A stretch of DNA of 64,000 nucleotides, taken from assembly GCF_002327105.1 (NCBI RefSeq), contig NZ_CP023406.1:434001-498000 (forward strand), written 5' to 3'. The stretch comes from Luteimonas chenhongjianii (GTDB taxonomy: Bacteria; Pseudomonadota; Gammaproteobacteria; Xanthomonadales; Xanthomonadaceae). Below, in pieces: positions 43,125 through 54,666 of the stretch (positions are counted from its first letter, which is position 1; every line of letters begins with the position of its first letter). The notes under the pieces were generated by a model. The model did no database searches and was not told where the DNA came from. It was given only the letters and a program-made list of their open reading frames with translations. Position numbers and translations under genes: made by a program.

Positions 43125-44609
43125 CTAGTCCGCGGGCACGGTCCGGTCGCTTGCCCAGTTGCGCAGCGCGTCGACCTGCTCGCGCATCATCACCGAAAGT
43201 GGTCGCGTGTCGCGCAGTGATTCGACGACCATCGGCTGCGACAGCGGCGCGCCGGCAGCATGCGCGGCATAGAGCGCGGCCACGATGGCCTGCTCGATCT
43301 CGGCACCGGAAAAGCCCTCTGCCTCGGCGGCCAGCCCGGGCAGGTCGAAGTCCGCAAGTGCGAAGCCGCGCCGCGCGAGATGCACCGAGAACACCTCGGC
43401 GCGCACCTCGGCGGTCGGGAGGTCGACGAAGAAGGTCTCATCGAAGCGACCCTTGCGCAGCAGTTCCGGTGGCAGGTCGTGGACCTGGTTGGCAGTGGCA
43501 ACCAGGAACACCTTCGACTTGCGCTCGGCCATCCAGGTCAGCAGGAAGCCGAGCACGCGGCGCGACACGCCGCCGTCGCTGTCGCCGCTGGAGGCGAGGC
43601 CCTTCTCGATCTCGTCGATCCACAGCACGCAGGGCGCGAGCTGTTCGGTGGAGGCGATCGCCTCGCGCAGGTTGCGCTCGGTCTCACCGTGGTACTTGTC
43701 GTAGAGGGTGCCGAAGTCCAGCCGTACCAGCGGCACCTGGAGACCGCCGGCGATGGCTTTGGCCAGCAGCGACTTGCCGCAGCCCTGCACGCCGAGCAGC
43801 AGCACGCCCTTCGGCGGATCCAGGCCCGGCGGGCCGTCGCCCTCGACGAACACCCGGCGGCGCTGTTCGATCCAGCGCTTGAGCCGCCGCGCGCCGGCCA
43901 CGTCGGCGAAGCCGGCGGTGTCGTATTCGTAGTGCAGATGCCCGCTCTTGTTGAGCAGCTCGAACTTGAGCTTGGCGAGCGCAGGCAGGTCGTCATGACC
44001 GAGCGCGCCGTCGACGTGGATCAGCTGGCGGGTGATGCGGCGCGCATCCCCGAGCGACAGCCCCTGGAGGTTGCGCACGATCTGGCGGACCGCATCGGCG
44101 TCGGCCTCCACCCGTCGGCCGCCGTGTTCCTGCTGGTAGAGGGTGGCTTCCTCGCGCACCAGTTTCAGCAGCGCGTCGGCGTCGGGCAGACGCGGGCGGA
44201 AACGCACGGCCATCGCCTCCAGGTCCGCCGGCAGTTCCACCTTGTGGCCGACCAGCACGATCACGTGCGGCAGGCTGTGGCGCCGCTGGATCAGGTCGCG
44301 CAGCTGACGCTGGGTGCCGGCATAGCCCAGGTAGGGATGGAAATCGAGCAGCAGATAGATGCCGCGCTGCTGGGCGTCGCGGATCGCGGCCAGGGTATTG
44401 CTGGCATCGGGGGCGGTATCGGTCTCCGACTCGCCGTCGAGATCGAGCCGGCGCAGACCCTCGGTGATCGTCCACCGGTACAGCGCGCGCCAGACCTGTT
44501 GCAGGGATTGCCGGAACAGCTCGACCACGCGCGGCTCATCGGGCGTTTCGACGACCACCAGCGGCGTGTTGGCACGGATCAGGGCGGCCAGGTCCTGCAG
44601 TTCGCTCAT
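43125..44609 (-). CDS. Ycf46-like AAA+ ATPase
   Basis: The 494-aa protein has an N-terminal ATPase-derived domain (about residues 1-230, with VVVETPDEPRVVELF and YLLLDFHPYL). The C-terminal AAA+ core has Walker A GVQGCGKSLLAKA, Walker B CVLWIDEIEKG, sensor 1 VATANQV, and an arginine finger in LLRKGRFDE. This layout matches the Ycf46/AAA group found in cyanobacteria and proteobacteria, with poorly known function. It is divergent from the ParA-like gene with about 107 bp between them. Confidence 0.85.
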   Translation of the reverse strand: MSELQDLAALIRANTPLVVVETPDEPRVVELFRQSLQQVWRALYRWTITEGLRRLDLDGESETDTAPDASNTLAAIRDAQQRGIYLLLDFHPYLGYAGTQRQLRDLIQRRHSLPHVIVLVGHKVELPADLEAMAVRFRPRLPDADALLKLVREEATLYQQEHGGRRVEADADAVRQIVRNLQGLSLGDARRITRQLIHVDGALGHDDLPALAKLKFELLNKSGHLHYEYDTAGFADVAGARRLKRWIEQRRRVFVEGDGPPGLDPPKGVLLLGVQGCGKSLLAKAIAGGLQVPLVRLDFGTLYDKYHGETERNLREAIASTEQLAPCVLWIDEIEKGLASSGDSDGGVSRRVLGFLLTWMAERKSKVFLVATANQVHDLPPELLRKGRFDETFFVDLPTAEVRAEVFSVHLARRGFALADFDLPGLAAEAEGFSGAEIEQAIVAALYAAHAAGAPLSQPMVVESLRDTRPLSVMMREQVDALRNWASDRTVPAD

Positions 44610-44716
44610 GGGCGCGTCGCGTCTGTCGTCGGGAACCCGGATGTTAAACGGGCGGCGCGGTCGCGGTGGTGGGGTCGCCGGTGTACGCTCGAACGCGAAC
44701 CCATCCGGAGGCTTCG

Positions 44717-45349
44717 ATGAAGACGGTACTGGTGGCCAGCTCCAAGGGTGGTGTCGGCAAGACCACGATCGCAACCCATCTCGCCGCGCATTCCGCGCTG
44801 GCTGGCGAGCCCACCGTCCTGATCGACGCCGATCCGCAGCAGTCGTCGACGCGCTGGGCCGAGCGCCGCGCCGGTATGGAGGCCGCGGTGTTGCCGCTCG
44901 ACGGCAGCGCGCGCCACAGGAAGGTCCTGGCATCGATCCCCGAGGGCGCGACGCGGCTGGTGATCGATGCACCCGCTGGCGCGATGGCCGAGGACCTCGA
45001 CGCCTACCTGGAGCTCGCCGAGGCGGTGGTGGTGCCGGTGTTGCCGTCCGCGCTTGACATCGAGGCGACCGTCGGCTTCCTCAACACGCTGGCCAGACAC
45101 CCGCGCATCCGCCGCGGCCAGACCCGCGTGGGCCTGGTCGCCAACCGCCTGCGGCCTCATACCAACGCCACGCAGCAGGCCTTGGCGCTGCTCGACCAGT
45201 GGCCGTCTCCGGTGATCGCGCAGCTGCGCGACAGCCAGGCGTACGTGATGCTGGTCGGGCTGGGTAAAAGTCTGTTCGATTACCATTCGGCGCAGGTCCG
45301 CGAGCACCAGGACGACTGGACCCCGCTGTTGAAATGGCTGCGGAAATAG
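44717..45349 (+). CDS. ParA family ATPase
   Basis: The 210-aa deviant Walker-A ATPase has SSKGGVGKTTIATHLA at residue 8-23, the switch VLIDADPQQSS and VIDAPAG. Such proteins position chromosomes, plasmids or protein clusters. No ParB or parS site is visible next to it, so it belongs to orphan ParA proteins. CGGAGG lies 6-7 nt before ATG 44717. Divergent from the AAA ATPase gene. Confidence 0.88.
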   Translation: MKTVLVASSKGGVGKTTIATHLAAHSALAGEPTVLIDADPQQSSTRWAERRAGMEAAVLPLDGSARHRKVLASIPEGATRLVIDAPAGAMAEDLDAYLELAEAVVVPVLPSALDIEATVGFLNTLARHPRIRRGQTRVGLVANRLRPHTNATQQALALLDQWPSPVIAQLRDSQAYVMLVGLGKSLFDYHSAQVREHQDDWTPLLKWLRK

Positions 45350-45425
45350 CCTGTCCCACGGCGTGTTCACCGCGACCGAACGCACCGCCCGTCATGAATC
45401 GATCACCCGAGGCCGCCAAAACCAC

Positions 45426-45902
45426 ATGCGCGAACTGATCCTGCTCCGCCATGCCCATGCCGAGCCCGCACTGCCGGGACAGGCCGACATCGATCGGCCC
45501 CTGTCCGCCGAGGGTCTCGCGGAGGCCGAGGCGGCCGGACGCTGGCTGCGCGACAAGCAGCTGGTGCCCGACTGCGTTCTGTGCTCACCGGCGCGGCGCA
45601 CGCGCGAGACCCTCGAAGCGGTGCTGGCCGTGATCGGCTATGTGGACCAGCGACTGGTGCCGGCGATCTACGAGGCCACACCGGGCACGCTGGCTACCGT
45701 GCTCGACGAGGATCGAGACAGCAGCCGGGTGATGCTGGTGGGCCACAACCCCGGCCTGGAACGGCTGACGGCCCTGCTGCACACCGGCCAGACGGGCGAG
45801 TACCGCGGCATGCCGCCGGCCGGGATCGCGGTCCTGAGCCTGCCGACCGGCGCCGCGGTGGAACCTGCGGCGGCAGAGCTGTCGGCTTTCTGGTGGCCGT
45901 AA
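45426..45902 (+). CDS. sixA: SixA-type histidine phosphatase
   Basis: This 158-aa phosphohistidine phosphatase has the catalytic RHG-like motif LILLRHAHAEP near the N-terminus, SPARRTRET, and the second catalytic His in VMLVGHNPGLERL. E. coli SixA dephosphorylates phosphohistidine on the nitrogen phosphotransferase protein NPr. It is the first gene of a close plus-strand run with the YceI and phospholipase D genes. Confidence 0.85.
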   Translation: MRELILLRHAHAEPALPGQADIDRPLSAEGLAEAEAAGRWLRDKQLVPDCVLCSPARRTRETLEAVLAVIGYVDQRLVPAIYEATPGTLATVLDEDRDSSRVMLVGHNPGLERLTALLHTGQTGEYRGMPPAGIAVLSLPTGAAVEPAAAELSAFWWP

Positions 45903-45939
45903 CGGCAGCTGCGCGGCGTCGCGCCTTGCCAGTCTGACA

Positions 45940-46533
45940 ATGATGCAGTTCGTATTCGTACCCCTGCTGCGGCGGCTCGTGGCCGCGGGCCTGCTCTGCG
46001 CGGTCGCCCCCGCCTGGGCGGCGATGGAACCCGGCAGCGCTTCGTCCATGGACATCGCGCGTTCGGAGATCGGCTTCAGCCTGCGCACCCGCTGGGGCCA
46101 GGAACTGGTCGGCCGGTTCGGTGACTGGCAGGGCGAGATCGCGGTGTTGCCGGATGGTCGCCACCAGGTGCGGCTGGCCCTCGCCGCCGACAGCGTGGAG
46201 ATCGTCGGCAGCCGCGTCTACACCCGCATTACCCGCGGCCCGGGCGTGTTCGACGTCAAGCGGTTTCCGCAGATCCTCTTCGTCTCCGATCCGTATCCCG
46301 CCAACCTGGCACGCGAGGGTGGCGAGATGACCGGCGTGCTGAGCATCCGTGGCGTCCAGCGCCGCGAGGCCTTCCGTATCGCCGCCTCGGAATGCGAGCG
46401 CCCGGCCTTCGATTGCGACGTGACCGGGACGGGTGATGTCCGCCGCAGCCAGTACGCGATGGACCGGTGGGACTATGCGCTCGCCGACCAGGTGCGTTTC
46501 AGCCTGCGGATCCGGGCCCTGGATCAGCGCTGA
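45940..46533 (+). CDS. YceI family protein, exported
   Basis: This 197-aa protein has a signal peptide (cut near residue 27, AWA) and a YceI lipocalin-like domain: FSLRTRWGQELVGRFGDWQGEI, PGVFDVKRFPQILFVSD, and a final DYALADQVRFSLRIRAL. YceI proteins bind isoprenoid-like lipids in a beta-barrel. Two adjacent ATGs (45940, 45943) are possible starts. Its stop overlaps the next gene by one base (TGATG). Confidence 0.85.
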   Translation: MMQFVFVPLLRRLVAAGLLCAVAPAWAAMEPGSASSMDIARSEIGFSLRTRWGQELVGRFGDWQGEIAVLPDGRHQVRLALAADSVEIVGSRVYTRITRGPGVFDVKRFPQILFVSDPYPANLAREGGEMTGVLSIRGVQRREAFRIAASECERPAFDCDVTGTGDVRRSQYAMDRWDYALADQVRFSLRIRALDQR

Positions 46534-48479
46534 TGCATGTCCTGACCCGTGCCGCCGTGCTGGCCCTGACGCTGGCCACCGCCGCCTGCACCACGCTTTC
46601 GCCGGCCCGGCGCGACGCGGCGGCGCACATCGCGGTGGAGGCACGCTCGACCGAAGTGGTCTGCGAGCGTGCGGACGCGTGCGCGACGCCCTCGCCGCTG
46701 CGCGAACTGGGCGAACGCGCACTGGCGCGCAGCACGCCGTCCGCGCCGCAGCACTATGCCCTGCTGCTCGAGTACGGCCAGGACGCGCTGCTCGCCCGCC
46801 TCGATCTGATCCGTGGCGCGCAGCGCACGATTGACCTGCAGACCTATATCTTCGACGAGGACGATTCCGGCCATCTTGTGCTCGAGGAACTGCTCGCCGC
46901 CGCGCGGCGCGGGGTCCAGGTGCGTCTGCTGGTGGACCAGCTCTCGGCGCTGCGCACGGTGGAAACACTGTCCGCGCTTGCCGGCGCCCACACCAACTTC
47001 GAAATGCGGATCTACAACCCCGTGCTCGGCCGTGCGCGCATCACCTACCCGCAGTACGCGCTGGCCGCGGCCTGTTGCTGGCGCCGGCTCAACCAGCGCA
47101 TGCACAGCAAGTCCCTGCTGGTCGACGGCGTGGTCGGCATCACCGGCGGCCGCAACTACCAGGACGACTATTTCGACTGGAGCGACAGCTTCAACTTCCG
47201 CGACCGCGATGTGCTGATCGCAGGTCCGGTGGTCGAGACGATGAAGCAGAGCTTCGTCGCGTTCTGGCATGCGCCATTGAGCACGCCGGTCGAGCAGCTT
47301 GCGGATGTCGGTCGCCATCTGCTGCGCGACGGCGTGCCGCCGGTGTCGTTCCAGAACTACCAGCGCCCCGCGCGCGTGGCGGCGATGTCGGCCGACGCCG
47401 AGGACGCGGACCTGGTGCGCCAGCGTCTGGCGGACCTGGCGCTGGCGGTGGGCCCCGTCGAATTCATTGGCGACCTGCCGGGCAAGCACCGCCGTGACCG
47501 CGAGGCGGCGCAGGCCTCGATCGCCGCGACGCCGCGCCTGCGCGAGCTGATCGAATCCGCGCAGGACGAGGTGCTGTTGCAGACGCCCTATCTGGTGCTG
47601 TCGAAGCCGGCCGAGCAGATGTTCGCCGAGCTGCATGCCCGGCCCGACCCGCCGCAGGTGCTGGTGTCGACCAACAGCCTGGCCGCGACCGACTCCTTCA
47701 TTACCTACGCGCTGTCCTACAAGTACAAGCGCCGGCACCTGCGCGATTTCGGCTTCCATATCTACGAGTACAAGCCGTTTCCGGAAGACGCGCCGATCGA
47801 CCTGGAAGTCACCGGCGCGGTGGACATCTCGTGGAACGCCGACGGCAGCGTCAATCTGGACGAGAGCGGAACCGAAGGCGCATCGGCCACGCGCGAGGCG
47901 GTGATCGCCGCGCGACCGGCCAGCGTGGCGCCGCTGACCCGCGAGTACTCCGCGCTGCGCTACGCCGGCATCGGCGTGAACCGTCAGGTCCCGCTCAACC
48001 GCACGGGCCTGCGTATGGGACTGCATGCCAAGTCGCTGGTGGTCGACACGCGCATCGGCGTGGTCGGCACCCACAACTTCGACCCCCGCGGCGATACCTA
48101 CAACACCGAGAACGCCGTCGTCATCGAGGACGCCCGTTTTGCCGAGCGCCTGGCGGCGAGCATTCGCCGCGACATGTCGCCCGCCAATGCCTGGACGATC
48201 GCGCGTCGTGATTCGCCGGCGGTGTTTTCGGGGCTGGACTATTCGATGGCGAAGGTGTCGGAGCAGCTGCCGATCTTCGACCTGTGGCCCACCCGCTACG
48301 CCACGAGTTTCGAGTTCCAGCCGGGGCCGGGCTGCCCGGAGCCGCTGCCGCCGGACGCGCCGGGCTTCCGCGCCTGTTATGCGCCGGTCGGCGACTTCCC
48401 GGAAGTGAGCCTCGGCTGGCGCAGCCTGATGACGCGGATCTTCACCGCCTTCGGCGCAGGCCTCGTCCCGATCCTCTGA
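46533..48479 (+). CDS. phospholipase D family lipoprotein (ClsC-like)
   Basis: This 648-aa protein has a lipoprotein-like signal (LALTLATAACTT) and two HKD catalytic motifs: MHSKSLLVDGVVGITGGRN in the first half and LHAKSLVVDTRIGVVGTHN in the second. Length and layout match ClsC, a cardiolipin synthase using phosphatidylethanolamine, although the usual ClsB/YmdB partner is not in the window. ATG 46533 overlaps the YceI stop, so the two are translationally coupled. Confidence 0.9.
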   Translation: MHVLTRAAVLALTLATAACTTLSPARRDAAAHIAVEARSTEVVCERADACATPSPLRELGERALARSTPSAPQHYALLLEYGQDALLARLDLIRGAQRTIDLQTYIFDEDDSGHLVLEELLAAARRGVQVRLLVDQLSALRTVETLSALAGAHTNFEMRIYNPVLGRARITYPQYALAAACCWRRLNQRMHSKSLLVDGVVGITGGRNYQDDYFDWSDSFNFRDRDVLIAGPVVETMKQSFVAFWHAPLSTPVEQLADVGRHLLRDGVPPVSFQNYQRPARVAAMSADAEDADLVRQRLADLALAVGPVEFIGDLPGKHRRDREAAQASIAATPRLRELIESAQDEVLLQTPYLVLSKPAEQMFAELHARPDPPQVLVSTNSLAATDSFITYALSYKYKRRHLRDFGFHIYEYKPFPEDAPIDLEVTGAVDISWNADGSVNLDESGTEGASATREAVIAARPASVAPLTREYSALRYAGIGVNRQVPLNRTGLRMGLHAKSLVVDTRIGVVGTHNFDPRGDTYNTENAVVIEDARFAERLAASIRRDMSPANAWTIARRDSPAVFSGLDYSMAKVSEQLPIFDLWPTRYATSFEFQPGPGCPEPLPPDAPGFRACYAPVGDFPEVSLGWRSLMTRIFTAFGAGLVPIL

Positions 48480-48687
48480 CCCCGCGGACCGAACGGGTGC
48501 GCCGAGCCGGCGCAGCGTCGTAGTTCGCCGCTGGCGGGCCTCCAGCAGCCCGCAACCATTGCGAATATTAATCCCGGCTGAACATTTTCAGCTGAATGCA
48601 CGGGCGTGACTTACGGCATGTGGTGTTCTTCAACAGTGGTGTTGTAGTCTACCAACACACCGAAGCACACCACCCACGGAGATCGCC
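48480..48687. promoter_or_regulatory. intergenic promoter/operator region upstream of the three small genes
   Basis: Two structures stand out. First, the perfect inverted repeat GCTGAA-CATT-TTCAGC (48577-48592). Second, the segment 48621-48661: two direct TGGTGTT copies 16 bp apart (48621 and 48637), and an imperfect palindrome GGTGTTGTAG-TC-TACCAACACACC (48638-48661). A -10-like TAGTCT lies inside the palindrome, so a repressor bound there would block transcription. The palindrome has the look of a GntR-type operator; no regulator gene is adjacent. Confidence 0.5.
48638..48661. promoter_or_regulatory. operator-like imperfect palindrome over the probable -10
   Basis: GGTGTTGTAG and CTACCAACACACC are inverted with one extra C. 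The site ends 26 bp before the first small gene. Regulation by a GntR-like repressor is inference. Confidence 0.4.
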
Positions 48688-48831
48688 ATGCAGACCCAGA
48701 CCCTCTCGACCCGTCAGTTCGCCGCCGTCTGTGCCCGCCCGTTCGGCACCGGCTACGGCCGCAGCAGCGGCTACGCCGCGCCGCGCAGCTATACCGCAAG
48801 CACCGTGCCTGCCCGCTTCCGCGTCGCCTGA
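48688..48831 (+). CDS. small basic peptide gene A (47 aa) of a three-gene tandem family
   Basis: ATG 48688 is preceded by CGGAGAT. The product contains GTGYGRSSGY, PRSY and ends VPARFRVA. It is Arg-, Ser- and Tyr-rich, has no hydrophobic helix and no signal peptide. It shares a 30-residue C-terminal half with peptide B, identical at most positions (GYGRSSGY..PRSY..S.VPARFR.A). Function unknown. Tandem duplication with diverged N-termini resembles leader/core organisation, but no modification enzymes are nearby. Confidence 0.7.
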   Translation: MQTQTLSTRQFAAVCARPFGTGYGRSSGYAAPRSYTASTVPARFRVA

Positions 48832-48855
48832 CCCACTACCCATCGGAGAGCCGCC

Positions 48856-49011
48856 ATGTCCCGCATGCACGCCATCATCAATGCCGCCGCCCACCTCGTC
48901 CCGTCCACTGCCCTGCGCCAGCCCGGCCCCGGCTACGGCCGCAGCAGCGGTTACTGCAGCCCGCGCAGCTACGCGTCGGCATCCGTCCCCGCACGTTTCC
49001 GCATCGCCTGA
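48856..49011 (+). CDS. small basic peptide gene B (51 aa)
   Basis: ATG 48856 has GGAGAG 8 nt upstream and lies 24 bp after the peptide A stop. The C-terminal half GPGYGRSSGYCSPRSY followed by SVPARFRIA matches peptide A nearly residue for residue. The N-terminal half (MSRMHAIINAAAHLVPS) differs. One Cys falls in the conserved core (two residues after GYGRSSGY); peptide A has its only Cys in the N-terminal half. Function unknown. Confidence 0.7.
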   Translation: MSRMHAIINAAAHLVPSTALRQPGPGYGRSSGYCSPRSYASASVPARFRIA

Positions 49012-49078
49012 TCACGATCGCCGATCACCGATCAACGCCGGCGCCTGAAGCGTTCCTCCGATCCTCAGGAGTTCAGCC

Positions 49079-49240
49079 ATGTTCCGCCCCGATGCCCTGC
49101 TCCATTTCGCCCCCACGTCGCCAATGACAACCTGCCTCGCACGGCCCGCCCGCTTCCACAGCCAGGCCCGCATCGCCCACAGCGCCTTTCGCCTGGAAGG
49201 TCGCGACAGTGCAATGCCGGAACGGTTCCGGATCGTCTGA
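49079..49240 (+). CDS. small basic peptide gene C (53 aa)
   Basis: ATG 49079 is preceded by CAGGAG with ideal spacing. The GYGRSSGY core is absent, but the end MPERFRIV matches the P(A/E)RFR(I/V) terminus of peptides A and B, and ARPARF occurs internally. It is therefore probably a diverged third member. It ends about 120 bp before the thioesterase gene. Function unknown. Confidence 0.62.
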   Translation: MFRPDALLHFAPTSPMTTCLARPARFHSQARIAHSAFRLEGRDSAMPERFRIV

Positions 49241-49363
49241 GCCGCGGCGCTCTCCGCCGCATCTGCGCGGCGATGCCCGGGTTCGCAATGCACCATTGCA
49301 CCGCCTCGCTGCGCGAGCGCGCATAACCGCCTAAGCTTTCGCGTTTCTCCAGAGTCCTGGCGC

Positions 49364-49780
49364 ATGTTCCGTAGCGACACCACGCTCGACCAGCTCAATA
49401 CGATGTCCGCCGGCACCGCGATCGCGACGCTGGGCATCGTCTTTACCGAACTGGGCCCCGATTTCCTGCGCGCGACGATGCCTGTCGATGCCCGCACCCA
49501 TCAGCCCTATGGCCTGCTGCACGGTGGCGCATCGGCATTGCTGGCCGAAACCCTCGGCAGCACCGCCGGCGGCCTGGCTGCACCCGACGGACACGGCGTC
49601 GTCGGTATCGAGATCAATGCCAACCATCTGCGCGGCGTCCGTGCCGGCAGCGTGACCGGGACGGCGCGCCCGCTGCATGTCGGGCGCAGTACCCAGGTCT
49701 GGGAGATCCGCATCGAAGACGTGGCCGGCAAGCTGGTCTGCATTTCACGGCTGACGCTCGCCGTCGTGCCGAAACCCTGA
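49364..49780 (+). CDS. hotdog-fold acyl-CoA thioesterase (MenI/YdiI type)
   Basis: This 138-aa PaaI-superfamily thioesterase has the signature [19 protein letters not shown], with the catalytic Glu in LLAETLGS, and [15 protein letters not shown]. Family members hydrolyse aromatic or acyl-CoA esters such as 1,4-dihydroxy-2-naphthoyl-CoA. The exact substrate cannot be assigned. A short gap separates it from the PlsC-type gene on the same strand. Confidence 0.88.
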
Positions 49781-49824
49781 GTGGGCGTCGACCGTCCAGG
49801 CCCGGGTTTGGGTATCGTGCACCG

Positions 49825-50634
49825 ATGACGTCTTCCCCCGACCACGCCGAAGCCGACGCCAGCGGCATGCCGGCGCGTGTGCTGCGTTACTGCGTGCGTG
49901 TCCCGTTGCTGATATGGCACCTCGGCGTGGATCTGCCGATCCTGCTGCTCTCGATGCTGCCGCCGATCGGACGGCGCCGCCTGCGCAGCGGCGAGCGCGT
50001 CGATCACCGGATGATCCGCTGGTGGCAGGGCGGGCTGATGCGCGTGTTCGGATTCTCGGTGCGCCGTGTAGGCACCCCGCTGCCGGGCGCGACGCTGTTC
50101 GTCGCCAACCACGTCAGCTGGATCGACATCGTGGCGCTGCACAGTCAGCGCATGGTCGGCTTCGTGGCCAAGCGGGAGATCGCCGGCTGGCCGGTGGTGG
50201 GGTGGCTGGCAGCGCGCGGCGAGACGATCTTCCACCAGCGCGGCAGCCGTGAATCGATGGGCGGCGTGCTCGACGAGATGGTCGCGCGGCTGCGCGAAGG
50301 CCGGCCGGTCGCCGTGTTCCCCGAAGGACGCACCCGCGGCGGCGACGTTGTCGGGCCGTTCCACGCCCGGATCTTCCTCGCCGCGGTCGAGGCCAATGTC
50401 CCCGTGCAGCCGGTGGCGCTGCGCTACGGCCGCGATGCGTCCGCGCAAGCGGTCGTAGCCTTCCGCGAGCACGAGTCGTTCATGGCCAATTTCCTGCGCC
50501 TGCTCGGCGAGGAGCCGCGCGAGGCCCAGGTGGTGTTTCTCGAGCCGATCCTGCCGGGCAGTTCCGACGGCCGCCGCGGCCTGGCCGAGGTCTCGCGCGA
50601 GCGCATCGTCGCCGCGCTGGAAACGCGCGCGTGA
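49825..50634 (+). CDS. lysophospholipid (1-acyl-glycerol-3-phosphate) acyltransferase, PlsC family
   Basis: This 269-aa membrane acyltransferase has the HxxxxD motif in VANHVSWIDIVAL (His96, Asp101), the acceptor motif FPEGRTRGGDVVGPF (about 169-183) and an N-terminal hydrophobic helix. It should acylate lysophosphatidic acid or a related lysolipid. The stop overlaps the following YheT gene as GTGA. Confidence 0.88.
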   Translation: MTSSPDHAEADASGMPARVLRYCVRVPLLIWHLGVDLPILLLSMLPPIGRRRLRSGERVDHRMIRWWQGGLMRVFGFSVRRVGTPLPGATLFVANHVSWIDIVALHSQRMVGFVAKREIAGWPVVGWLAARGETIFHQRGSRESMGGVLDEMVARLREGRPVAVFPEGRTRGGDVVGPFHARIFLAAVEANVPVQPVALRYGRDASAQAVVAFREHESFMANFLRLLGEEPREAQVVFLEPILPGSSDGRRGLAEVSRERIVAALETRA

Positions 50635-51752
50635 ACGGGCAGCGTCCGCGCGGGATGGCGGATGCGGCCGAGGATGCGCCGGGCGACATCTACGTGCGCG
50701 GCAGTGATTACGCACCGCCGATGTGGCTGCGCAGTCCACACGTGCAGACCCTGCTGGCCAGCAGCGACCTGCGTCGTCGCCGCAGCGCGCAGACCCTGGC
50801 GGCGACCGGCGCCGTCACCACCGCGCACCTCGTCGACGGCGGCGACGGTGTGCGCCTCCAGGGCCATCACAGCGTGGTGCCGGGGATCGAGCCGCGCGGC
50901 CTTGCCCTGCTCCTGCACGGCTGGGAAGGCAGTACCGAGTCGAGCTACATGCGCCTGACCGCTGCGCAGATGCTGGGGCTCGGGTTCGAGGTGTTCCGGC
51001 TCAACTTCCGCGACCACGGCGGCACCCACCACCTCAATCCGGCGATCTTCCATTCCAACCGCATCGACGAAGTGGTGCACGCGGCGCTCGACATCGCCGC
51101 CCGCTTCGCGCCCAGGCCGATGCTCGCGGCCGGCTATTCGCTGGGCGGCAACTTCGCGCTGCGCCTGGCATTGCGCGCGCCCGCAGCCGGACTGCAGCTC
51201 GCCGGAGTGGCCGCGGTGTGCCCGGTCATCGATCCCTCGCGCACGATGCTGCACATGGAACGGGGTCACCGCCTGTACCTGCGCCATTTCGAGCGCACCT
51301 GGCGCGCATCGCTGCGCCGCAAGCGCGAGCTGTTCCCGGAGCAGCTCGCCTTCGACGACGCGACCCTCGGCCTGGGGATGCGCGAGTTGACCGACTGGCT
51401 CGTGCGGACGCACACCGATTTCGGCTCGCTCGACAACTATTTCGATGGTTATTCCATCGCCGGCAACCGGCTGTCGTCACTGCAGGTCCCGGCCGACATC
51501 CTGATGGCGGCGGACGATCCGGTGATTCCGCTGGACGCCTTCCACGACCTGACGCTGCCGGCGCATGCGCGGGTCGAGATCAGCCGCTGGGGCGGTCATT
51601 GCGGGTTCCTGCTCGACCACTCGCTCGACAGCTTCGCCGAACGCTGGGTCGCCGGCCGGCTGTCGGGCCACGCCCGCGCCGCGCAGACGTCCTCGGAACG
51701 CACGCGACTGGCGGCCGCGATCCGCGCCCGCCCCCGTTCGCCGGAAGCCTGA
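50631..51752 (+). CDS. YheT family alpha/beta hydrolase
   Basis: This 373-aa hydrolase has YheT features: PPMWLRSPHVQTLL near the N-terminus, LLLHGWEGSTESSYM, FRLNFRDHGGTHHLNPAIFHS, and the nucleophile AAGYSLGGNFALRLA. Late Asp/His are in MAADDPVIP and RWGGHCGFL. Members are putative esterases of unknown substrate. GTG 50631 overlaps the PlsC stop; ATG 50655 is a possible alternative start. Confidence 0.88.
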   Translation: MNGQRPRGMADAAEDAPGDIYVRGSDYAPPMWLRSPHVQTLLASSDLRRRRSAQTLAATGAVTTAHLVDGGDGVRLQGHHSVVPGIEPRGLALLLHGWEGSTESSYMRLTAAQMLGLGFEVFRLNFRDHGGTHHLNPAIFHSNRIDEVVHAALDIAARFAPRPMLAAGYSLGGNFALRLALRAPAAGLQLAGVAAVCPVIDPSRTMLHMERGHRLYLRHFERTWRASLRRKRELFPEQLAFDDATLGLGMRELTDWLVRTHTDFGSLDNYFDGYSIAGNRLSSLQVPADILMAADDPVIPLDAFHDLTLPAHARVEISRWGGHCGFLLDHSLDSFAERWVAGRLSGHARAAQTSSERTRLAAAIRARPRSPEA

Positions 51753-51908
51753 GCGCCGCGCCCGTCCGGCGCCATCCATCTGTTCCGATTGGCCGGCCCG
51801 CGCCTCGTGCTCGGGCGCGCGCCGACAAGCGCGACCGGGATCGCCGCATGCGGGCGCAGGTCTTCCGCGTCTCCGATGCGCGGACGGCGGCCGCGGCGGC
51901 GCCCCCGC

Positions 51909-51914
51909 TACAAT
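51909..51914 (+). promoter_or_regulatory. -10 element (GCTACAAT) before the TPR/sulfotransferase-like gene
   Basis: CCGCTACAATGCCC lies about 43 bp before ATG 51958 and matches the extended -10 form found elsewhere in the window. Confidence 0.5.
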
Positions 51915-51957
51915 GCCCGGCCTTGCCTTTGGTCGGCTTCGCGCCGGGATGTCCGCA

Positions 51958-54027
51958 ATGTCGCAACAGATCTACCAGGCCCTGCAACGCGGCGCGAATG
52001 CCGAAGCCGCCGCACTGGCCCACCAGGCCATGGCCACCGCGCCCACCGACGTCGAGACCCTGAGCGCGGCCGCGCTGGCGTTCCGCTCGAACGGCGATCG
52101 CGACGCCGCGCTGTCGACGATCGATGCGGCCATTGCGCAGATGCCCGACAACGCGGAACTCCATTTCCTGCGCGCGGGCATGCTGCTCGACACGCGCGAC
52201 CTGGGCGGCGCGCAGGCCGCGCTCGCGCAGACCATCGCGCTCGATCCCAACCAGTACGGCGCCTATGTCGTGCAGGCGCAGATGGCGATCGGCCGCAACG
52301 ACCTCGCCGAGGCCGAACGCCAGAGCAAATTGGCCGCGCGCGTCGCCCCCGAGCACCCGTGGACGCTGATGCTGGAAGGCACCGTGGCCTCGCGCCGCGG
52401 CGATCACGATCGCGCCCTGTCGCTGCTGACGGCGGCGTCGCAGCGCGCGCCCGAGGATGTGCAGGTGCTCAATGCACTGGGGTTCGCCTATCTCGCCAAG
52501 GGCCATCTCGCGTTCGCCGAACAGGCGTTCCGGCGCATCCTGGAGAAGACCGGTCACGCGCCGCTGCGCGGGCTGCTGGCGCAGATCCTGTTCCAGCAGG
52601 GCCGCCCGGCCGAGGCCGCCGACGAGATCGCCGCGCTGATGACCGACCCGGCCCATGTCTCCCCGTCCATGCAGACCTTCGCCGGTGAGCTCGAGCTGCA
52701 GGCCCGGCGCTTCGACCGTGCCAGGCCGCTGCTGCAGGCCGCGTTCGCGGCCCACCCCGAATCACGCCGCGCCACCAACGGGCTGCTGCTGCTCTGGGAA
52801 GCCACGGGCAACACCGAGGACACCCGCGACACGCTCGACGCCGCGCTGGCACGCGATGCGCAGTGGGACCACCTGTGGCTGGCGCGCCTGGCGATGGAGA
52901 GCTTCGGCAGCGACGTCTCGCGCGAACTGATCGCGCGCTGGACCGCGGCGCGTCCGGAACATGTGCCGGCGCTGCAGGCGCAGCTGGCGCTCGAGGCCGG
53001 CACCGGCGAACTCGAGGCCGCGGAAGCCACCGCGCGCAAGATCGCCGAATTGCAGCCGGGCCACGGCAATGCCAACGAATTCCTGTTCAACCGGCTGCTC
53101 GGACGTGATCCCGATGCCGCGGTCGCCTTTGCCGAAGGCCTGCTCCCGGCCGCCAGTGCGCCTGCGCGCGTGATGCTGCGCCGCTGGATCGCGATGGCGC
53201 AGGACAAGGCCGAGCGGCCTGCCGACGCCATGGCCACCTGGATGGCGCTCAATGTCGAGGCGACCGCCAACGTCGGCGCCCCGCCGGCGCCCTCGGCCGC
53301 GCCGGCCAGCTGGCCGGAGATCGGCACCGTCGAAGGCACGGTGCGGCCCACGGTGTTCCTCTACGGTCCACCCGGCGCGCAGGCGGACCGCATCGCCAAT
53401 CCGCTGCAGCGCGCGCTGCCCGAATTCCGCAGCGACCGCTTCACCACGCCGATCCAGGATGCCTTCCAGGACACCACGGCGCCCGTGCGCCTGGCCGCTG
53501 GTGAATTCACCGGCGAACAGGTCGCCGACAGCTGGGTGGCGCAACTGCCCGCGCGCGGCATCGGCGATGGGGCGGTCATTGACTGGCTGCCGTTCTGGGA
53601 CAACGCCTGGCTGCTGGCGCTGCGGACACGGATGCCCCACGCACGGCTGCTGCTGGCGCTGCGCGACCCGCGCGACATGCTGCTCGACTGGCTCGCCTAC
53701 GGCACGCCGCTGGCGATGAAGATCACCGATGCCGACAGCGCGGCGACCTGGCTGGCCGCGCATCTGGCGCAGCTCGCCGACCTCATCGAGCAGGACCTGT
53801 TTCCGCATACCGTCGTGCGTACCGACGCCCCGGGCGAGGATCTCGAGCGCCTGGCCTCGCGCTTTGCCGAGGCACTCGGCGTGCCGACGTTCCCGACTCC
53901 GCCGCGCGCGCTGCTCGGCCCCGACCGGATCCCGGCCGGCCGCTGGCTCGCCTATCGCGACGTACTCGCCGGCCCGATCGCGACCCTGACCCCGGTCGCG
54001 GTCCGCCTGGGCTACCGACAGGACTGA
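51958..54027 (+). CDS. TPR protein with C-terminal sulfotransferase-like domain
   Basis: The 689-aa cytosolic protein begins with about ten TPR units (residues 1-410; e.g. VLNALGFAYLAKGHLAFAEQAFRRIL). The C-terminal domain (about 430-689) resembles nucleotide-dependent sulfotransferases: TVFLYGPPGAQADRI in place of the PAPS loop, LLALRDPRDMLLDWLAY and a terminal RLGYRQD. The PAPS P-loop is not canonical, so activity is uncertain. Starts at 51949 (MSAMSQQ) and 51958 are both possible; the latter directly follows GGGATGTCCGCA. Confidence 0.8.
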   Translation: MSQQIYQALQRGANAEAAALAHQAMATAPTDVETLSAAALAFRSNGDRDAALSTIDAAIAQMPDNAELHFLRAGMLLDTRDLGGAQAALAQTIALDPNQYGAYVVQAQMAIGRNDLAEAERQSKLAARVAPEHPWTLMLEGTVASRRGDHDRALSLLTAASQRAPEDVQVLNALGFAYLAKGHLAFAEQAFRRILEKTGHAPLRGLLAQILFQQGRPAEAADEIAALMTDPAHVSPSMQTFAGELELQARRFDRARPLLQAAFAAHPESRRATNGLLLLWEATGNTEDTRDTLDAALARDAQWDHLWLARLAMESFGSDVSRELIARWTAARPEHVPALQAQLALEAGTGELEAAEATARKIAELQPGHGNANEFLFNRLLGRDPDAAVAFAEGLLPAASAPARVMLRRWIAMAQDKAERPADAMATWMALNVEATANVGAPPAPSAAPASWPEIGTVEGTVRPTVFLYGPPGAQADRIANPLQRALPEFRSDRFTTPIQDAFQDTTAPVRLAAGEFTGEQVADSWVAQLPARGIGDGAVIDWLPFWDNAWLLALRTRMPHARLLLALRDPRDMLLDWLAYGTPLAMKITDADSAATWLAAHLAQLADLIEQDLFPHTVVRTDAPGEDLERLASRFAEALGVPTFPTPPRALLGPDRIPAGRWLAYRDVLAGPIATLTPVAVRLGYRQD

Positions 54028-54048
54028 CCCGCCCCGACAGGAGCCACC

Positions 54049-54666
54049 ATGCGTATCCACAGCGACAGTTTCGAACCCGGCCGGCCGATTCCGGCGACCT
54101 ATGCGGTCGGCACCAGGGATGGCTTCGGCGGCAACCGCAACCCGCACCTGGCCTGGGACGACGTGCCCGCGGGTACGCGTTCATTCGCCCTGCTGTGCAT
54201 AGACCCCGACGCGCCAACGGATCCTTCGCTGGCCGGCAAGGCAGGGGTCGAGATCCCGGTCGAGCATCCGCGCGGCAGCTTTGTGCACTGGGCGGTGGTC
54301 GACCTGCCGGCCGAGCTGCGCGAGATCGCCGAGGGCAGCGCCAGCGACGGCGTGACCAAGGGCGGCAAGCGCAATCCGCCCGGGCCGGCCGGCGCCCGCC
54401 AGGGCCTCAACGACTACACCGGCTGGTTCGCGGGCGACGCCGGACTCGCGGGTGACTGGTTCGGCTACGACGGCCCGTATCCACCGCCCAACGACCTGCG
54501 CACGCACCGTTATTTCTTCCGGCTGTTCGCGCTCGACGTCGCCCGGCTCGATGTTCCCGAGCGCTTCACGGCGGGCGATGTGCTGCGCGCCATGCAGGGC
54601 CACGTACTGGCCGAAGCGCTGGTCTGGGGCAGCTATGCGCTGCATCCGCAGGCTGCGGCGGTCTGA
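54049..54666 (+). CDS. YbhB/PEBP family protein
   Basis: The 205-aa phosphatidylethanolamine-binding-like protein has the family pattern NRNPHLAWDDVPAGTRSFALLCIDPDAP, FVHWAVVDLPAELREI, and GYDGPYPPPNDLRTHRYFF. PEBP proteins bind small anionic ligands; bacterial members are mostly uncharacterised. GACAGGAGCCACC precedes ATG 54049. It follows the sulfotransferase-like gene by 21 bp and may share its transcript. Confidence 0.88.
   Translation: MRIHSDSFEPGRPIPATYAVGTRDGFGGNRNPHLAWDDVPAGTRSFALLCIDPDAPTDPSLAGKAGVEIPVEHPRGSFVHWAVVDLPAELREIAEGSASDGVTKGGKRNPPGPAGARQGLNDYTGWFAGDAGLAGDWFGYDGPYPPPNDLRTHRYFFRLFALDVARLDVPERFTAGDVLRAMQGHVLAEALVWGSYALHPQAAAV

Follow-up and report, generated by a model that had tools for sequence, protein, structure and literature searches.

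Regulators of the YtrA subfamily of the GntR family are the closest described relatives of the system reported here. According to the parts of the literature cited, most of their regulons consist of a single ABC-transporter operon (PMC4494728). For the YtrA-like regulator of X. citri the motif is GGTG-N16-CACC, and for YtrA of S. acidocaldarius one further locus beyond its own operon is described (both in the cited part of PMC6746942). The X. campestris member HpaR1 activates gumB when bound from -21 to +10 (PMC4730234, in the part cited). The B. subtilis ytr operon responds to inhibitors that bind lipid-linked cell-wall precursors, to cold shock and to the growth transition, and operons of the YtrA type are markers of lipid II-cycle inhibition whose function is debated (cited part of PMC12772383). 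PmtR, another member, regulates an ABC exporter and is released by the exporter's peptides (PMC5080381, likewise in part).

The locus described here resembles these regulons (B. subtilis ytrGABCDEF, X. citri YtrA, HpaR1, S. acidocaldarius YtrA and PmtR) in its small GntR regulator and in an ABC-transporter operon with a small first gene. It shares the long-spaced palindrome GGTG-N16-CACC with X. citri, and a predicted second locus besides the regulator's own operon with S. acidocaldarius. Unlike in the known regulons, the predicted second target, far from the regulator's own operon, encodes several basic small proteins in a row, from a family that lacks a model. The window, that is, the whole 64-kb stretch of DNA analysed (G000:C1:434001-498000, in a genome of 3.35 Mb on a single contig), contains the following features.

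48607-48617, + strand: upstream box TGACTTACGGC, a possible activator site by inferred function
48638-48661, + strand: predicted YtrA operator GGTG-N16-CACC, unique in the window and with the top matrix score
48688-48831, + strand: gene A, 47 aa, GYG-RFR small protein
48856-49011, + strand: gene B, 51 aa, GYG-RFR small protein with the conserved B-type head
49079-49240, + strand: gene C, 53 aa, diverged relative with the PxRFR end only

The original prediction described three tandem ORFs of 47, 51 and 53 codons, each with a ribosome binding site, and GGAG is indeed found 6-7 nt upstream of the ATG in each of them. The near-identity that it claimed for the C-termini of A and B amounts to 20 of 28 residues (E = 2e-14, a single comparison). 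C, as claimed, retains only the PxRFR end: its match to B covers 10 residues, 5 of them identical, and ends in RFRI (E = 0.012). The three products have no lysine and a pI of 11.4-11.5. Their most hydrophobic 19-residue windows score 0.14, 0.71 and 0.55 for A, B and C on the Kyte-Doolittle scale, so that none contains a hydrophobic segment; all 127 relatives described below stay at or below 1.6 on the same measure. A weak AlphaFold2 model of B (pLDDT 63.8, pTM 0.24, 43 sequences) shows only a short helix at residues 3-12. We infer that the small proteins are mostly disordered, rich in arginine and aromatic residues, and cytoplasmic.

The three proteins had no match in Pfam at E<=0.1, PF06803 (DUF1232) included, and 27 aligned relatives had none in Pfam (0/27) or NCBIfam (0/27) at E<=1. 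PADLOC matched none of four queries. One of four queries was matched in PHROGs, namely A, by phrog_32629 (E = 0.0071), whose function is unknown. The PDB held no sequence relatives at E<=10. A phage or plasmid origin was dropped after tblastn for relatives there, with one query each, gave no match. A literature text search for the motif strings found no paper, and among the matches listed for DUF1232/YkvA no title concerned the GYG-RFR tail. Likewise, the titles and abstract starts among the matches listed for YtrA, Lysobacter, GntR and the small proteins of Luteimonas, Lysobacter and Xanthomonas describe none of these genes. The family thus has no model in the libraries searched, and we call it undescribed within the limits of these library and literature searches.

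Within the genus, 36 of 37 genomes (counting its own) have a match to B, as do 3 of 24 genomes of the same order but different families. With a profile built from 27 members, matches were found across the bacterial family (144 of 198 genomes sampled, in 42 of 54 genera). In an even sample of the order, a 31-column module was matched in 21 of 200 genomes, five of them weakly (E = 0.0015-0.009). Loci L003-L007 were excluded from the family's locus set as chance matches. By this conservation, A and B are established as genuine genes of a small-protein family in Luteimonas, Lysobacter and relatives, with C a diverged relative.

Conservation centres on a C-terminal module, about 30 residues long, that keeps a constant distance from the end of the protein: RxFGxGYGxSSGY...Y...RFRx[A]. 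We gathered 127 distinct proteins by the pattern GYGxS downstream of the promoter element described below. All 127 have G, G, Y, G and S at positions -2, 0, 1, 2 and 4; G0, Y1, G2 and S4 are invariant by construction because the proteins were collected by GYGxS, and G-2 is not. Serine at +5 was found in 121, tyrosine at +7 in 126, and the three residues of the RFR end in 104, 124 and 116, respectively. GYG lies 26 residues from the C-terminus in 113. Over the whole set, arginine outnumbers lysine by 1112 to 57 residues. Two of the sequences, L208_2 and L232_2, were retained although they probably derive from the ends of DUF1232 proteins. The original prediction was right about a duplicated family with its conservation concentrated in a C-terminal core.

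Within 1.3 kb at 88 named loci, one GYG copy was found in 47, two in 31 and three in 10; copies were counted by an ORF rule, and in a few cases the second copy is the end of a DUF1232 protein. C-type ORFs lie behind the same promoter in several relatives, some with a B-type head and an RFR end but no GYG (L019, L207). At L207 (Luteimonas deserti), five small genes stand in a row behind the operator. They comprise four copies, three with ASYG in place of GYG, plus one C-type gene, and the last of the row has a B-type head and an RFR end without GYG.

In ten comparisons of A or B with orthologues (290 codons), differences at the three codon positions numbered 50, 40 and 81. The codons for Ser +4 of GYGxS were AGC in 115 proteins, TCC in 11 and AGT in one. 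AGC and TCC are separated by a two-base switch that preserves serine, which argues for selection on residues. That the first halves differ was correct for A against B, but not among B-type copies, whose N-terminus (MSRMHAIVHAAAHL...) is conserved (pN 0.166, pS 0.329). The pair statistics, from which 14 of 129 sequences without the 29-codon core were left out, are weaker. In 42 of 57 greedy pairs pN was below pS, A-type heads showed no constraint (pN 0.264, pS 0.267), and the pooled core ratio was only 0.81 (6322 pairs with pS<0.6). These values count against the explanation that we favour.

The original prediction overlooked the YtrA-type operator upstream of A. At most of the loci inspected, the element GGTGTTGTA[GC]T[CT]TACCA[AG]CACACC stands before the first small gene and is itself preceded by a TGACTTnnGGC box. 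The window site is unique in the 64 kb, and in its own genome at <=3 mismatches. A -10-like TGTAGT (48643-48648) lies inside the operator, where it aligns with TATAGT, the -10 of the ytrA promoters. We trained a matrix on 23 ytrA promoters, with no small-gene promoter in the training set. This matrix ranked the window site first in the 64 kb at 23.5 bits, with a runner-up at 3.0; the site is an imperfect palindrome, and the mean of the training sites is 42. The small-gene promoter was ranked first by the ytrA matrix in 16 of 18 neighbourhoods. The exceptions are L163 (G037) and L167 (G096), where the gene lacks a site; at L164 the site is weak, with 5.1 bits. In its own genome, the pattern common to both site types occurs at <=2 mismatches in two places, the ytrA operon promoter and the small-gene locus. 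The reversed pattern, used as a control, gave no match in 8 of 10 genomes, the own genome among them, and one each in G186 and G233.

A scan for the element across genome contigs of 84,980 species returned 95 stretches. A GYG ORF starts within 140 nt of the element in 88 of them; this figure holds partly by construction, because the scan pattern was drawn from these promoters, and the ytrA matrix is the independent test. The seven others are L173, L175, L182, L195, L211, L225 and L242. L175 and L195 contain divergent relatives, L242 is truncated, and L211 contains the Pseudofulvimonas operon, in which a small first gene precedes ytrA. The box TGAC[CTG]TnnGGC was present 29-33 nt upstream of GTGTTG in 75 of the 95 sites, TGACTT alone in 14 and neither in 6. 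The spacing is 32 nt at the window locus, where the upstream box may be an activator site.

A good -35 was seen in 20 of 24 ytrA promoters and in none of the 95 sites of the small-gene type. A sigma-70 promoter was dropped as a candidate, with no match in 48300-49500 and no -35 at the 95 sites. A structured RNA was dropped as well after Rfam gave no match at the locus.

At <=2 mismatches the element was found in only 47 of 250 genomes. Sites of this kind outside the family often precede small GntR genes (L269, L270, L272-L275, L283, L285, L287). At L271, L277, L279 and L280, for example, the element had no evident YtrA or small gene alongside. The dyad TGTAGT/ACTACA resembles sites of the BlaI/CopY type, and a repressor of that type was dropped in favour of YtrA once the sites before GntR genes had been found. 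A similar element stands before membrane-fusion-protein genes in other families of the order (L276, L282, L284, L288-L293), and TGAC[CT]TnnGGC also lies upstream of it in L282 and L291-L293. These genes were called by reading translations; Pfam confirmed GntR for L269 and a biotinyl-lipoyl/HlyD-like domain for L284.

An operator of the YtrA type points to a regulator elsewhere in the genome. A candidate gene was found at G000:C1:2247262-2247591 (GntR domain, E = 1.7e-14), its subfamily being judged by size and similarity without a subfamily model. The sequence GGTGTTATAGTCACCTACAACACC upstream of its operon is of the GGTG-N16-CACC type. A ytrA orthologue was present in all 24 genomes searched (E<=1.1e-38), and GGTG-N16-CACC stands upstream of all 24; in G037 the ytrA operon has the small-gene type of element. 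As far as sequence can tell, it is strongly supported that the small genes are a target of their own YtrA-subfamily GntR regulator through the predicted operator. Binding of YtrA across the -10 would link their control to that of the YtrA/ABC-transporter operon, which lies in another part of the genome. Against this reading, several genomes have ytrA and no small gene. Repression at the small-gene promoter is likely but not certain, because HpaR1 activates gumB from -21 to +10 and the window site lacks the -35 of the ytrA promoters.

The first gene of the ytrA operon is an 88-aa ORF (L335 5375-5109, - strand, beside G000:C1:2247600-2247900) whose N-terminus looks hydrophobic and for which Pfam gave no match; its place in the operon is comparable to that of ytrG in B. 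subtilis. In 4 of 10 genomes (L350, L351, L352 and L355), none of which has the small genes, a further site of the YtrA type, GGTGTGGTAGTAAGGTAGTACACC, precedes an oppositely oriented gene that possibly encodes a secreted repeat protein.

The operator predicted for both the small genes and the ytrA/ABC operon could also mean that the peptides are leaderless substrates of that transporter, with the C-terminal module as export signal. Staphylococcal phenol-soluble modulins (PSM) offer a parallel: small peptides, a YtrA-type regulator and an ABC transporter, Pmt, whose regulator PmtR is released by the peptides (cited part of PMC5080381). The PSM differ in being exported toxins with an amphipathic helix, features that are hypothetical for the peptides here. 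A helix of the PSM kind is not predicted beyond residues 3-12 of B, in a low-confidence model, and ytrA is present in genomes without small genes (G066, G117, G123, G233, G366 and G145). DUF1232 proteins of about 200 aa end in the same tail as well. We regard export by this transporter as improbable.

In the window, 45363-54666 reads His-phosphatase, YceI, PLD, the small genes, 4HBT, PlsC, hydrolase, TPR and PEBP-like, and most of the 18 neighbourhoods keep this order, from His-phosphatase to PEBP-like, on either side of the small genes. In the neighbourhood comparison that had been proposed, 16 of 18 had both a PLD gene and a 4HBT gene near the small genes, and usually genes for YceI, PlsC and a hydrolase too. 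At L162 the PLD gene is about 7 kb off, and this gene order is absent at L163 and L164.

Since the 4HBT gene begins 124 nt after C and lies behind the small genes in 16 of the 18 neighbourhoods, translation of the small ORFs might control it, as in leader peptides or attenuators. This would hardly account for several tandem copies, each with its own start and Shine-Dalgarno sequence, or for selection on residues as seen in the AGC/TCC serine codons. A terminator-like site is absent from the locus, as is any Rfam match. We give this explanation almost no weight.

The original prediction had offered a modified peptide precursor, a secreted signal or a binding tag. Small tandem genes with a conserved core would suit either of the first two. 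In agreement with its statement that no modification or export gene is adjacent, the Pfam domains of the scanned neighbours (43260-54666, with no family in 43260-44720) include no modifying enzyme, export gene or processing transporter. A RiPP precursor is unsupported because none of the neighbours scanned encodes a modifying enzyme and because it is the C-terminus that stays invariant. A conserved end with a free head is the reverse of a leader with a variable core. The lack of a hydrophobic segment in A, B and C speaks against a secreted signal with a leader-type export. We consider a RiPP precursor or secreted signal very unlikely.

The binding tag is favoured among these options because the same module ends DUF1232 proteins. 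Proteins of this kind, of about 200 aa, end in relatives with a GYGxSSGY...F.[FV]R module, either at the small-gene locus or elsewhere. Four candidate frames were examined, of which two (L258, L263) were false, and one tail-bearing protein matched PF06803 at E = 1e-8. In G098 such a protein lies directly downstream of the PLD gene; GGTG-N16-CACC is absent from this 3-kb locus, and no stand-alone copy was found. In an AlphaFold2 model of a DUF1232 protein, weak as a whole (mean 60, 2 sequences), most of the tail has a pLDDT below 50. DUF1232 proteins, presumably including B. subtilis YkvA (PF06803), thus share in relatives the ending of the A/B-type module. Unlike them, A, B and C have no DUF1232 domain, and their own genome gave no DUF1232 match at E<=0.001.

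GYGxSSGY also occurs inside a low-complexity Gly/Tyr/Gln-rich region of BON-type proteins in three genomes (L145/L356, L152/L360 and L357). They make up 3 of 14 matches, which came from 10 of 24 genomes. One of the proteins has a confirmed BON domain (E = 5.8e-12), and chance convergence in such a Gly/Tyr-rich region is possible. With its presence at the end of DUF1232 proteins, and a similar motif in the interior of a few BON-domain proteins, the module behaves like a portable tail. C-terminal recognition tags are short conserved modules at a fixed distance from the C-terminus of otherwise unrelated proteins. The GYG-RFR module is like them in being short, conserved, at a fixed C-terminal distance and on unrelated proteins; set against such tags, A, B and C lack a hydrophobic segment.

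We propose, with a probability of about 0.6, that A, B and C are leaderless, largely disordered basic proteins under YtrA control that attach to one shared partner through their tail. At the small-gene promoter YtrA would occupy GGTG-N16-CACC, over the -10, and so tie the small genes and the ABC operon into a single response. If B. subtilis is a guide, the small proteins might be made once YtrA leaves the DNA under lipid II-cycle stress or at a growth transition. The tail would then dock on its partner, which might be anionic lipid, the acidic surface of a protein, or RNA; the tail of DUF1232 proteins may do likewise. Tandem copies could serve dosage, or combine one kind of docking tail with several heads. 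Both the docking and its partner are conjecture. Only charge and the lipid genes nearby speak for an anionic phospholipid, and RNA is a reasonable alternative as the tail's partner.

The small Arg/Tyr/Gly-rich proteins might instead bind RNA, DNA or the ribosome as such and, being controlled with envelope stress, act on translation or transcripts. The pI of 11.4-11.5, the great excess of arginine over lysine and an aromatic, glycine-rich core would fit this. They match no known RNA-binding family or PDB relative, however, and the tail on DUF1232 proteins gives no particular pointer to RNA. We think this rather unlikely, if less so than export through the transporter.

Returning to the docking tail under YtrA control, a bolder form of this proposal may be stated tentatively, as a possibility well short of even odds. 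In this bacterial family, GYGxSSGY...RFR would be a portable tail of a new type, serving recognition or condensation and carried by the YtrA-controlled small proteins, by DUF1232 proteins and by the Gly/Tyr/Gln-rich region of some BON-domain proteins. On release of YtrA it would gather them at a single envelope-linked receptor or assembly that they share.

YtrA regulons themselves were already known; what is added here is a predicted second target under YtrA control that is a run of arginine-rich small proteins. Co-controlled tiny proteins with a portable tail, found in 42 of the 54 sampled genera and covered by no Pfam or NCBIfam model, would give a direct handle on the debated YtrA-type operons.
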